Shown here piece after piece: positions 55,527-59,640 of a stretch of DNA of 64,000 bases. The position numbers and the translations under genes were made by a program. The notes beneath the pieces are model-generated. The model did not search any database, was not told where the DNA came from, and saw nothing but the letters and a program-made list of their open reading frames with translations. The stretch lies in NCBI GenBank assembly GCA_013177855.1, contig JABLYA010000001.1:1653573-1717572 (forward strand). Direction: 5' to 3'. This DNA comes from Ignavibacteria bacterium (GTDB taxonomy: Bacteria > Bacteroidota > Ignavibacteria > Ch128b). How positions within the stretch are numbered: the first letter of the stretch is position 1; each line of letters begins with the position of its first letter.

Positions 55527-55749
55527 TAATAAGCATCCTCAAATGTTTGTGTTCAATCCGCAATTGAATTATAGAGCAGTTGATTGGAGTAACTCTACAA
55601 TTTCAATTTAATAATCGAATTCAATCAATTAAAGGTATTATTTTTGTTAGAAAATTTTTCGGCTTTGAGTTTTTTATTTTTTTAATTACGGCTAAATTCG
55701 ATGCAGTTTTATTGACTTTCAAAATTCAATATGATATTATAGTTATCAA

Positions 55750-58428
55750 ATGAAAAAATTTCTTTTTATTTTCTTTGGACTCACGGGATTAGTTGCTGCA
55801 CAGATTTATAATTTTCATTATTACAATTCCTCTAAGGGATTAACAAGTGCATCAATCACCAAAATTTCGCAGGATGAGAAAGGATACATATGGATAGGTA
55901 CTAATTCAAATTTATTCAGATACGATGGTTATCAATTTGAAGATGTTAGTAATTGGGATAATGCACTTAAAACAGAAATTGCAGGGATTGCTAATCTAAA
56001 CAATCAAGTCTGGGTTGCCACTTCTTTTAATGGACTTTTCGTTATAAAAAATCGGAATGAAATTTTAAATGTCAATCAAAGACTTCAATTCCTTCCTAAA
56101 AAAATTAAAAAGCTAAGAAGTGAACAGGGGAGATTGATTTTAATTTCTCAGGATAATGAATTTTTTGTTGTCACCAGTGATTCTCAGGCAACTAAAATTT
56201 TAGTCGACGCAAATCTTCCACTTACAAATTTCAACGATATTGTTCCAATTGATAATGGTTATGCGATTGCATCGGATAATGGACTTTTAATTTTTCAATA
56301 CAATCGAATCAAATTCACTTTCAATCAAAAAAAATCAGGTTCAACTTTTCAGGCTAAAGCTGTTGCTTTAGATAAGAATAAGAAGATAATTTTCATAACA
56401 AACGATGGAAGCATTTACAGAATTGAAAATTATCAACTTGTTGAATTACACTCTTCAAATAAATTTTACACTCGATTTACTTTAATTGTAGATCAATCAA
56501 ATGCAATATGGGCTGGCACTGATGATGGAATTTTGAGAATTGAAAATTCAAGGAAAGATTACATTGGCTATGCAAATGGTTTACCGCATAAGTTTGTGAC
56601 CGATATATTCGAGGATCGAGAAGGAAATATCTGGATTGGTACTCTAAATGGAATCGCAAAACTAAATTCACTTGCCATTCAAAATTATCCTTCTTTATTT
56701 CCGAAGGTTACTTCTTCAGTACACAAAATTTTCAAAGCAAAAAGCGGCGTTTATATATTTTCTGACGAAGGAATTTCAATTTTCAATCCGTTTGATAAAA
56801 CCTATTCAAATATTCAATTAAATTTCTCAAATCAAAATAAAGTCAATTCGGTTTTAGAATTTTCTAATTCAGCAAAACTGATTGGAACGAACAACGGACT
56901 TTTTATTTTGCAAGGTAACCGATTAACAAATTCTCCCCTCAATTCACAAATCAAAACAAGAAAAATTCTTTCACTTGCAAAAGATTCGGATAATAATCTT
57001 TATGTCGGAACCGACTCGGGACTTTATGTTTTTCAATCCAACAGAATAAAAGATTATTATTCAATTGATGATGTCTTACCTGGCAATGAAGTTAATGCGC
57101 TGCATATTACTCAATCAAATGATATTTATATCGGTACTGATAATGGACTTGTAAAAATTTCTAACAACTCAATCCTTGTTCTTAGAACAGGAAATGGATT
57201 GATAAACAATTACATAACAGCTCTTTCAGAAGATGATGAAGGAAGGATATGGATTGGTACAAAGAAAGGTCTATCGTCTTTCAAGAATGGAAGGTTTAAT
57301 AATTTTATTCCAAAGTTCGGAGGTAAAAATGCTGAAGAAATTTTAGAGGTTATTCCTGTTCAAAAAAATGAAGTCTGGATGGCTACACCTGAAGGAATTT
57401 TCATTATTAAGAATGGAGTGCAATATTCAACGATAAATTCTAATGATGGAATTCTCTCGAATTTTGTAAATGAACTTGAATACGATCCACAGTCCGGAAT
57501 TGTTTTTGTTGGGACAAATTCTGGCTTAAGCATAATTGAGTTAAAGTATCTTAAAGAAAATCACTTTTCATATAAAATTTACTTCACTGGATTTTCAACT
57601 AACAAGAAATCCTATGATTTGAACAAAATCGAGGTTTCTGATGATGAGGAAATCTTCAAAATAAATGTGTCGCTATTTTCATTCTTTGATGAGAAAAAAA
57701 TAATCTATCGATATCGAATAAAAGAATTTGAAGATAACTGGAACTATCTTACAGGCAGCAATACAATAACTTATAAAAATTTATCACCCGGTGATTATAC
57801 TTTAGTTGTTGAGGCTTCTATTGATGGAATTAACTGGTTAAGAGATTCAGCAGAATTAAAATTTTCGGTTAAGTCAAGTTTGTTGAAATATTTAGTTTAT
57901 GTGATTAGCGTCATCATAGGTTTAATTTTTGTGTACTCAGTTTTTCTGTTTGTCAGCAGCAGAAACAGAAAGAGAAATGATAAAATTGAATTTCCTGAGA
58001 TAGAGAAGGAAACTAATGCGGATCAAGAAGCAGCACAATTAAAGCAACAGGACTTAGAAACATCATTCGAAATCGAAGAAATTAAAAAACGACTCGAAGA
58101 GAAAATAGAAAACTTGAAAAAAATTATTCTTGAAAAAGAGAAAGTAATTGAGCAGCTGAAAGAAGAAAATAAATTGCTGAAAGAGAGAATAGTCGACCTT
58201 GAGAGTTCTCCACAAATTAAAAACTCGATTGATGAGGAAGAATTCGTTGAGAAATCCAGAATTGAAATTATTGTAAAGAGTTCTTCGGAAGCTGAAGAGA
58301 TAAAAAAGTATATAGATGCACTTGAAAAGACAAATTGGAATATACGAGCAGCGGCAAAACTTTTGAACATTCCACATTCAACATTTCATTACCGATTAAA
58401 AAAATGGAATTTGTTGAAAAATAAATAG
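55750..58428 (+). CDS. membrane propeller sensor with C-terminal Fis-type HTH
   Basis: The protein has 892 aa. A signal peptide is followed by about a dozen two-component-regulator propeller repeats (DEKGYIWIGTNSNLFRYDG-type, about 30-600), a Y_Y_Y domain (about 620-705) and a membrane helix (about 709-735). The cytoplasmic part lacks a kinase; it has a long Glu/Lys coiled coil (about 775-840) and ends in NIRAAAKLLNIPHSTFHYRL, a Fis-type HTH. That layout suggests a one-component regulator that senses outside and binds DNA while membrane-tethered. The 90-aa membrane protein gene follows 9 bases later. Confidence 0.83.
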   Translation: MKKFLFIFFGLTGLVAAQIYNFHYYNSSKGLTSASITKISQDEKGYIWIGTNSNLFRYDGYQFEDVSNWDNALKTEIAGIANLNNQVWVATSFNGLFVIKNRNEILNVNQRLQFLPKKIKKLRSEQGRLILISQDNEFFVVTSDSQATKILVDANLPLTNFNDIVPIDNGYAIASDNGLLIFQYNRIKFTFNQKKSGSTFQAKAVALDKNKKIIFITNDGSIYRIENYQLVELHSSNKFYTRFTLIVDQSNAIWAGTDDGILRIENSRKDYIGYANGLPHKFVTDIFEDREGNIWIGTLNGIAKLNSLAIQNYPSLFPKVTSSVHKIFKAKSGVYIFSDEGISIFNPFDKTYSNIQLNFSNQNKVNSVLEFSNSAKLIGTNNGLFILQGNRLTNSPLNSQIKTRKILSLAKDSDNNLYVGTDSGLYVFQSNRIKDYYSIDDVLPGNEVNALHITQSNDIYIGTDNGLVKISNNSILVLRTGNGLINNYITALSEDDEGRIWIGTKKGLSSFKNGRFNNFIPKFGGKNAEEILEVIPVQKNEVWMATPEGIFIIKNGVQYSTINSNDGILSNFVNELEYDPQSGIVFVGTNSGLSIIELKYLKENHFSYKIYFTGFSTNKKSYDLNKIEVSDDEEIFKINVSLFSFFDEKKIIYRYRIKEFEDNWNYLTGSNTITYKNLSPGDYTLVVEASIDGINWLRDSAELKFSVKSSLLKYLVYVISVIIGLIFVYSVFLFVSSRNRKRNDKIEFPEIEKETNADQEAAQLKQQDLETSFEIEEIKKRLEEKIENLKKIILEKEKVIEQLKEENKLLKERIVDLESSPQIKNSIDEEEFVEKSRIEIIVKSSSEAEEIKKYIDALEKTNWNIRAAAKLLNIPHSTFHYRLKKWNLLKNK

Positions 58429-58437
58429 GAGGTTTGA

Positions 58438-58710
58438 ATGGTCACAGTGCGACGAGTTGTATTTTTTATAGTTTCAACAATTATAATTGTTCTATTTGTG
58501 AAGTGGGGTTTTGATGGCTTCGAAATCTTTACAAAAATTTATCCATCGTCTGAATTAATTGATGAAAGTACCGGAAGAGTGATTGTTCAGACGAAAAGTT
58601 CTTATAAGCTTGGACTTGATATGGTGTTAATAATTTCAATTGGACTTTCAGCGTTGGGTTTGGTAGTAATTAATTTTTTCAAAATATGGTTCGCGGCAAG
58701 AGAAGAATAA
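58438..58710 (+). CDS. small two-helix membrane protein of unknown function
   Basis: The protein has 90 aa with two hydrophobic segments, about 6-23 and 62-83. The hydrophilic loop between them includes FEIFTKIYPSSELIDEST. An AGGAGG site lies just before the ATG. It is 9 bases after the propeller-Fis gene, so probably co-transcribed; it may help place or regulate that protein. I do not recognise a family. Confidence 0.65.
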   Translation: MVTVRRVVFFIVSTIIIVLFVKWGFDGFEIFTKIYPSSELIDESTGRVIVQTKSSYKLGLDMVLIISIGLSALGLVVINFFKIWFAAREE

Positions 58711-58713
58711 GAT

Positions 58714-59640
58714 TTAAAGTTCATTCATCGTTTTGAAGTGAGCTTTTACATATTCATAAAGTGTTTCTCTCCCAAATTGTTCAATTATTTTCCTTGCTGT
58801 CTCTTTAACCATTTCATTTGCACCTTTCGGAATTTGCATTCCAATTCTTTCTTCGGCTTTTTTAATCCATTCAAGAAAAGCATTTCGTGCAAGAATTGAT
58901 GCGGCTGCAACACCGATGAATCGCTCGGCTTTTGTTGTTTGAATAAGTTCAATCTGCTTTCCTTCTTTCATCAATGCATTTTTTATATAACTCTCATTCC
59001 CAAATTGATCGCAGATAGCAACGGGGACTTTATGTTTTGAAAGAATATTTTCAATGCATCTTGAATGTCCCCAGGCTAATAGTGTATTTAAGTTTTTAAT
59101 TTTTGAATAAAGTTCGTTGTATTTCTTTGGATAGATTTGAACGATTGTGAAATAATCAGCAAACTTTTCTTTTAGTACGGATGCAATCTCAATTACTTTT
59201 TGATCTGAAAGTTCTTTACTGTCTTGAACATTCAATTGAATCAAGTCTTTCTTTATTTCTGGAGTTGTATAAAATCCTGCGATTATTAATGGACCGAAGA
59301 AATCTCCTTTTCCAGATTCATCTACACCGATGTAATAATCAGGTTCGTCTGGTTTGTCATTTTTTGAATTATCTGGTTGATTTTCAATAATTGGTGAAAA
59401 AATTTTGTTGTGAATTTCGCTGTAAAGTTGAGAATTGGGATTTCCCTGAACAACAATTTTATATCCCTTTTTGCCGTAATAAACAACCACATTTACATTG
59501 CTCTTTGGCTTCTTAATTTGAAAATTAAAGTTGTAATTACCTTTTGAGATTCCTGTCACAAAGTAATTTTCTGCTTTGAACTGCTCATTTAATTTTTGAG
59601 CAATTTGACTTGCAATTAATTCTGAATTTTTTTCTGGCAT
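58714..59640 (-). CDS. rnhC: ribonuclease HIII
   Basis: The protein has 308 aa. The N-terminal TBP-like substrate-binding domain (about 1-90) is followed by an RNase H core with DESGKGD (107-113), the signature of HIII-type enzymes, and further acidic residues in VAICDQFG. It removes RNA from RNA-DNA hybrids. Its stop is 4 bases from the stop of the small membrane protein gene on the other strand. Confidence 0.93.
   Translation of the reverse strand: MPEKNSELIASQIAQKLNEQFKAENYFVTGISKGNYNFNFQIKKPKSNVNVVVYYGKKGYKIVVQGNPNSQLYSEIHNKIFSPIIENQPDNSKNDKPDEPDYYIGVDESGKGDFFGPLIIAGFYTTPEIKKDLIQLNVQDSKELSDQKVIEIASVLKEKFADYFTIVQIYPKKYNELYSKIKNLNTLLAWGHSRCIENILSKHKVPVAICDQFGNESYIKNALMKEGKQIELIQTTKAERFIGVAAASILARNAFLEWIKKAEERIGMQIPKGANEMVKETARKIIEQFGRETLYEYVKAHFKTMNEL

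Follow-up and report, generated by a model that had tools for sequence, protein, structure and literature searches.

HTCS receptors are laid out as Reg_prop repeats, a Y_Y_Y domain, a kinase, a receiver, and an AraC HTH, and take oligosaccharides as their cues, according to the portions of PMC3243724 that deal with them. SusR, in the relevant part of PMC3878776, is a membrane protein with a periplasmic sensor and a cytoplasmic DNA-binding domain. Transmembrane transcription regulators are widespread; the passages of PMC10269533 on their domains give Y_Y_Y in 7.7% of them and a share of about 8.2% for kinase/receiver hybrids, and some of them have a small partner protein in Table 1 of that source. 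In co-component systems, the regulator and a membrane partner are encoded together, as described in an excerpt of PMC9214523.

Here we describe P0001, a sensor-regulator gene found in a window of 64,000 nucleotides (the whole stretch of DNA analyzed) from an Ignavibacteria bacterium, and the small gene P0002 next to it. A sequence-only reading of this locus had pictured a sensor of about a dozen propeller repeats, a Y_Y_Y domain, and a membrane helix, which lead to a coiled coil and a Fis-type HTH in place of a kinase, with a tiny two-helix protein behind.

Table 1. Features at the P0001 locus, numbered from the first nucleotide of the window
Feature	Position	Strand	Basis and remarks
Promoter-like element TTGACT-N17-TATTAT	55712..55740	+	9 nt before ATG; seen in sequence
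P0001 sensor-regulator gene, 892 aa	55750..58428	+	ORF, Pfam, orthologues, model
Signal peptide-like N-terminus (predicted), residues 1-18	55750..55803	+	Hydrophobic N-terminus
Reg_prop double beta-propeller, residues 19-600	55804..57549	+	Pfam, AlphaFold2, Foldseek
Y_Y_Y domain, residues 601-708 (Pfam match 645-708)	57550..57873	+	Pfam, AlphaFold2
Single membrane helix, residues 709-739	57874..57966	+	Hydropathy, model helix 710-739
Long helix, probable coiled coil, residues 764-818	58039..58203	+	Model, heptad test
Fis-type HTH block, residues 837-892	58258..58425	+	Pfam, alignment, conservation, model, PDB match
P0002, 90-aa two-helix membrane protein, likely co-transcribed partner	58438..58710	+	Next gene in 6/6, alignments, model
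Ribonuclease HIII-like gene (presumed from sequence)	58714..59640	-	Convergent, adjoins P0002 in 6/6 family genomes; not part of the system

Architecture of P0001 and its likeness to known receptors

Pfam matched Reg_prop in P0001 at 98.6 bits against a cut-off of 20.4, Y_Y_Y at 50.9 bits against 26.6, and HTH_8, the Fis-type HTH, in residues 855-886 at 35.5 bits against a gathering threshold of 22. None of the 18 families that Pfam listed at E<=1 is a HisKA, HATPase, receiver, or sigma-54 AAA+ domain, and no AraC-type HTH was found by Pfam. An AlphaFold2 model computed from a 5-row orthologue alignment had a mean pLDDT of 73.5 and a pTM of 0.43. In this model, propeller strands extend from 22 to 597 and Y_Y_Y-like strands from 609 to 708, followed by the helix at 710-739 that is also indicated by hydropathy. 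The inner end consists of a long helix (764-818) and three short helices (845-860, 865-871, and 876-885). The pLDDT is below 50 in 736-773 and 820-837, and the linker 740-769, at about 30, is predicted to be disordered. The repeat count of the sequence-only reading is fair, as the template fold leads one to expect a pair of seven-bladed propellers, and the Y_Y_Y domain, the membrane helix, and the C-terminal Fis-type HTH were all recovered. The coiled coil held up in part. The heptad spacing of hydrophobic residues in helix 764-818 was above most shuffles in all six orthologues, but the signal was only modest in P0001 itself, where 196 of 5000 shuffles were as high, as compared with 7 to 132 of 5000 in the other five.

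Foldseek matched P0001 best to the sensor domains of the HTCS proteins BT4663, BT4673, and BT3049 (E 2e-37 to 4e-33), and a PDB sequence search also placed its outer part with HTCS sensor domains. P0001 shares with these Bacteroides proteins the double Reg_prop propeller, the Y_Y_Y domain, and the one membrane helix, as far as they are described in PMC3243724, and also the joining of a sensor and a DNA-binding end in one chain. The difference lies in the inner part. HTCS carry a histidine kinase, a receiver, and an AraC-type HTH in that same portion of PMC3243724, whereas P0001 is devoid of these and its HTH is Fis-type. The T9SS protein PorZ was rejected as a candidate; its score of 75.7 bits against a cut-off of 260 reflects only the shared propellers.

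As a membrane protein with a predicted periplasmic sensor and a predicted cytoplasmic DNA-binding end, P0001 is also similar to SusR (PMC3878776, in the part describing it). In that part, the DNA-binding domain of SusR is reported not to resemble significantly the corresponding domain of any other known factor, whereas P0001 has a recognizable Fis-type HTH, which sets the two apart by description. In addition, SusR-like systems differ from P0001 in that no polysaccharide-uptake genes are common to the six P0001 neighbourhoods. ToxR, CadC, and TcpP, in the passages of PMC10269533 on such proteins, are one-component, membrane-anchored regulators that act from the membrane, some of them with a small partner. 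P0001 would be alike in these respects by prediction. ToxR-type proteins have an N-terminal winged helix, whereas the HTH of P0001 is C-terminal and Fis-type and its sensor comprises about 700 residues.

The sole PDB match of the HTH profile was 2m8g (E 1.1e-4), listed as 'Transcriptional regulator', which we take to be an NtrC-type DNA-binding domain. The similarity is one of HTH sequence; P0001 has neither an attached AAA+ sigma-54 activation domain nor a receiver. With no AAA+ domain, P0001 cannot activate sigma-54 promoters in the way NtrC does. HTH_8 and the membrane helix 710-739 lie in one chain that has no kinase or receiver domain, the layout of a one-component regulator. We consider it very probable that P0001 is a membrane-tethered one-component transcription factor, in which a ligand-shifted dimer would bring a Fis/NtrC-type HTH to an operator, with P0002 as a probable tuner. 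An HTCS-type sensor is coupled here to a Fis-type output, beside which a small membrane protein, the likely partner, is conserved; the class itself is already known. Because Y_Y_Y has been reported in transmembrane one-component regulators, P0001 is a new combination and not a new kind of protein. The sequence-only reading of a regulator is supported, but part of its surprise is taken away by the prior description of such regulators with Y_Y_Y in the passages of PMC10269533.

Conservation, spread, and alternative readings

How widely is this architecture kept? A whole-genome search for P0001 in 99 genomes (its own and relatives) gave some match in 94, and orthologues were found in all five other genomes of its taxonomic family in this set, for a total of 6/6. 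The identity was 61-63% within the genus and 44-54% outside it. Four other assemblies contain full-length, uninterrupted orthologues (44-63% identity), and in the fifth (G004) the gene is split over two contigs. One orthologue is in CALDZP010000035.1 from an uncultured Ignavibacteria bacterium. The domain search for Reg_prop with HTH_8 that had been suggested along with the sequence-only reading returned Reg_prop, Y_Y_Y, and HTH_8 in 6/6 orthologues, with HTH_8 at E<=0.001 and the C-terminal piece standing for G004. In the other 93 genomes, the matches listed cover the propeller, Y_Y_Y, and membrane parts only, and none reaches HTH residues 860-892.

A profile of the HTH block was also searched against 391 genomes of the class, 126 of which had any match at E<=1e-4. 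The full score (129-135 bits) was reached in the six family genomes only; among the matches listed for the rest of the class the best was 40.7 bits, and the frames were mostly of NtrC size. The long carriers in G155, G239, G040, and G318 (listed frames >600 aa) were rejected as relatives, being AAA+ NtrC-type proteins without propellers when their sequences were read. At the phylum level, 33 of 395 genomes, a sample that overlaps that of the class, matched at E<=1e-5, and the match was full-length solely in the window's own genome. Among the matches listed in both samples (391 class and 395 phylum genomes), no similar HTH was located on a propeller protein outside the family, a search that a strongly diverged HTH could escape. 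The propeller-HTH_8 architecture thus appears, as far as searched, to be confined to one family of Ignavibacteria. In the part of the literature that was covered, no publication describes an HTH_8 end on a Reg_prop/Y_Y_Y protein, and an earlier census may mention one.

Within the family, the parts of the protein change at very different rates. The mean pairwise identity was 83.9% for the HTH (851-888), 59.4% for Y_Y_Y, and 54.7% for the propeller, as compared with 28.8% for the linker and coiled coil and 26.1% for the membrane helix. The dN was 0.05-0.09 in the HTH versus 0.12-0.29 in the propeller (four pairs, with dS saturated), and the recognition helix PHSTFHYRLKK is identical in 6/6 orthologues. 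Since the HTH is the slowest-changing part, selection keeps the predicted DNA-reading surface most strictly. The membrane helix and the linker would then be under selection only to keep their character.

A membrane helix and linker that change fastest (26-29% identity) are what would be expected of a simple tether, and together with the disorder predicted for linker 740-769 they fit regulated proteolysis, in which a signal would cause cleavage at the membrane and the freed coiled-coil-HTH fragment would act as a soluble regulator. We regard this as unlikely; neither a protease-site motif nor a neighbouring protease gene was identified, and for other transmembrane regulators the passages of PMC10269533 on them report action from the membrane itself. 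Still less probable is a loss of DNA binding that would leave the HTH as a protein-interaction or scaffolding module. The Pfam match does cover only positions 11-42 of the 42 in HTH_8, but the first helix is also present in the model and in the alignment, and the recognition helix stays invariant while the flanking parts drift. A chance fusion, frameshift, or assembly error that joined a kinase-type sensor to an unrelated HTH would agree with the lack, among the matches listed, of a propeller-HTH_8 protein beyond one family, but it can be dismissed given the orthologues in 6/6 family genomes, full-length in four other assemblies and as a C-terminal piece in a fifth. The membrane-tethered one-component regulator remains our preferred reading, in agreement with the 6/6 architecture, the resemblance to 2m8g, and the slow change of the HTH.

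P0002 and the genomic surroundings

The tiny two-helix protein noted behind P0001 is confirmed as an ORF. Its model has helices at 2-25 and 60-89 with a small beta element between them (mean pLDDT 81.8). P0002 starts 9 nt after the end of P0001 in the window and is the next gene in 6/6 family genomes, with a 4-nt overlap in G001 and G004 and a gap of 8 to 55 nt elsewhere. Such a cassette of a regulator and a small membrane partner is similar to the co-component systems of the VtrA/VtrC and ToxR/ToxS type. Partners in systems of this type form a periplasmic heterodimer with their regulator, and VtrC has a lipocalin-like sensor fold; in the P0002 model, the beta element of about 30 residues between two helices is too small for a lipocalin-like barrel. 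Pfam gave P0002 only sub-threshold matches to BphX (E 0.013) and YHYH, scans of its relatives (8 proteins, 7 of them two-helix, and a further scan of 12) gave no named family above cut-off, and PADLOC had no match for P0001 or P0002.

The P0002 profile matched 48 of 391 class genomes, 42 of them beyond the family (E 3e-10 to 5e-4). A YceI-like gene was present within the fetched stretch in 18 of 20 such loci and directly adjoined the small gene in 15 of 20; YceI was Pfam-confirmed for one (L089), and the others were assigned by similarity to it. The YceI-linked two-helix proteins (L088, L089, L090, L096, L101, L103, L105, and others) have the motif W...G..IFTKT..VE..DELFGT...GLDL. Comparison of the P0002 profile with this group scored 98.5% (E 2e-15), a kind of score that membrane helices can inflate, and the alignment has W, G, T, D, G, and GL(D) positions in common. 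Neither P0002 nor these relatives have a Pfam or NCBIfam name above cut-off. A homology of P0002 to an unnamed small two-helix membrane family beside YceI genes across Ignavibacteria is supported by these comparisons of predicted proteins. A single YceI gene occurs in the genome that contains the window, at a great distance from P0002.

A ToxS-like partner role for P0002 is plausible by analogy. YceI proteins are of a periplasmic, isoprenoid-binding type. On a bolder proposal, P0001 would work only together with P0002 as a receptor of two proteins, and P0002, whose family stands beside YceI genes elsewhere, would add a second, lipid- or quinone-related input to a sugar-type propeller sensor. 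This would be a co-component receptor evolved apart from the ToxR/ToxS lineage and with a Fis-type HTH. We hold this proposal to be doubtful.

The promoter-like element has a -35/-10 pattern at the same place in two congeners (G001, G002) in the alignment of six upstream regions; in G003 and G005 it lies at a greater distance from the start codon, and G004 has no clear copy. In the three congeners, about 9 nt separate the end of the -10-like hexamer from the start codon, so the mRNA should be leaderless or nearly so. The element is the only one common across genera and was tried as an operator. Its 12-mer with one mismatch occurred 16 times in the window versus 13.1 expected, not above chance, and its 19-mer with <=3 mismatches occurred at 132 places genome-wide versus 52 for the reversed control. 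These counts were read as a promoter and composition signal, and no operator was found in the six aligned upstream regions or by the pattern counts in the window and genome. The six neighbourhoods have only P0002 and the convergent RNase gene in common, with no consistent target gene, so that the regulon is not readable from context. Presumed ArsR-like and ArsM-like genes immediately precede the regulator, in the same orientation, in G005 (L042 10670-11803) and G003 (L043 7589-8718), and a presumed TerC-like gene is near the regulator in G003, G004, and G005. In the three congeners, what we take to be a cysteine synthase/CBS gene is divergently upstream.

Proposed mechanism and the modular platform

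We infer the topology, dimerisation, and DNA binding of P0001 and the partner role of P0002; the mechanism as a whole follows the order of the domains and what has been established for other transmembrane regulators. The exported double propeller and Y_Y_Y domain would face the periplasm and sense a ligand, by analogy an oligosaccharide or other envelope-exposed molecule. Binding would shift the geometry of a P0001 dimer, and the shift would pass through the one membrane helix and the coiled-coil stalk to the Fis/NtrC-type HTH, which would bind a conserved operator and switch sigma-70-type genes on or off without phosphorylation. P0002, from the same operon, would probably sit beside the membrane helix and stabilise or tune the receptor as ToxS and TcpH do for ToxR and TcpP. 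The domain order, the 6/6 architecture, the HTH conservation, the lack of an AAA+ domain, and the P0002 linkage all speak for this mechanism. Counting against it are the low sequence conservation of the membrane helix and coiled coil, the modest heptad signal in P0001, a five-sequence model with low-pLDDT regions, and the lack of a shared target gene or operator in the six neighbourhoods.

Where could such a protein have come from? We read 36 propeller proteins of the class, of which 24 were the best loci of the search and 12 were hand-picked, mostly for shorter frames. Left out of the domain scan were L017 and L034, cut by the fetched stretch; L119, the same gene as L024; and L028, L029, L118, L120, and L122, with no membrane helix near the C-terminus. 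Among the 29 proteins in the Pfam tally (28 class members and P0001), HATPase_c was found in 14, SpoIIE in 2, guanylate cyclase in 1, and HTH_8 in P0001 alone. The window's own genome has a propeller/Y_Y_Y relative with a kinase-type end (L121, G000:C1:1857049-1859436, 1070-aa frame). The phrase 'in place of a kinase' is thus apt. As the same platform occurs with several outputs and a kinase-type relative resides in the genome, P0001 arose most plausibly by a swap of the inner output domain.

L121 is a natural control for the kinase-less form. A second kinase-less propeller form occurs in L016, L019, L111, L112, L113, and L117, whose short tail carries four conserved cysteines in the motif CxxCKKIRxDKG..W ... 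HG(I/L)CPxC and may be a zinc-binding output. Beyond the membrane helix this tail measures 84-90 residues in five proteins, the exception being L016, in which no helix was called, and no family was assigned to it in the Pfam tally of 29 propeller proteins.

P0001 shows that the Reg_prop/Y_Y_Y/membrane-helix platform has a modular inner end, and its own DNA-binding end would skip phosphorylation. A route from ligand to promoter as short as this could prove useful in receptor design, and it could also be a clean setting in which to study how signals pass from a propeller sensor through a single helix. The locus also ties a small unnamed membrane protein family to a likely regulator, and this partner family is its least explored part.
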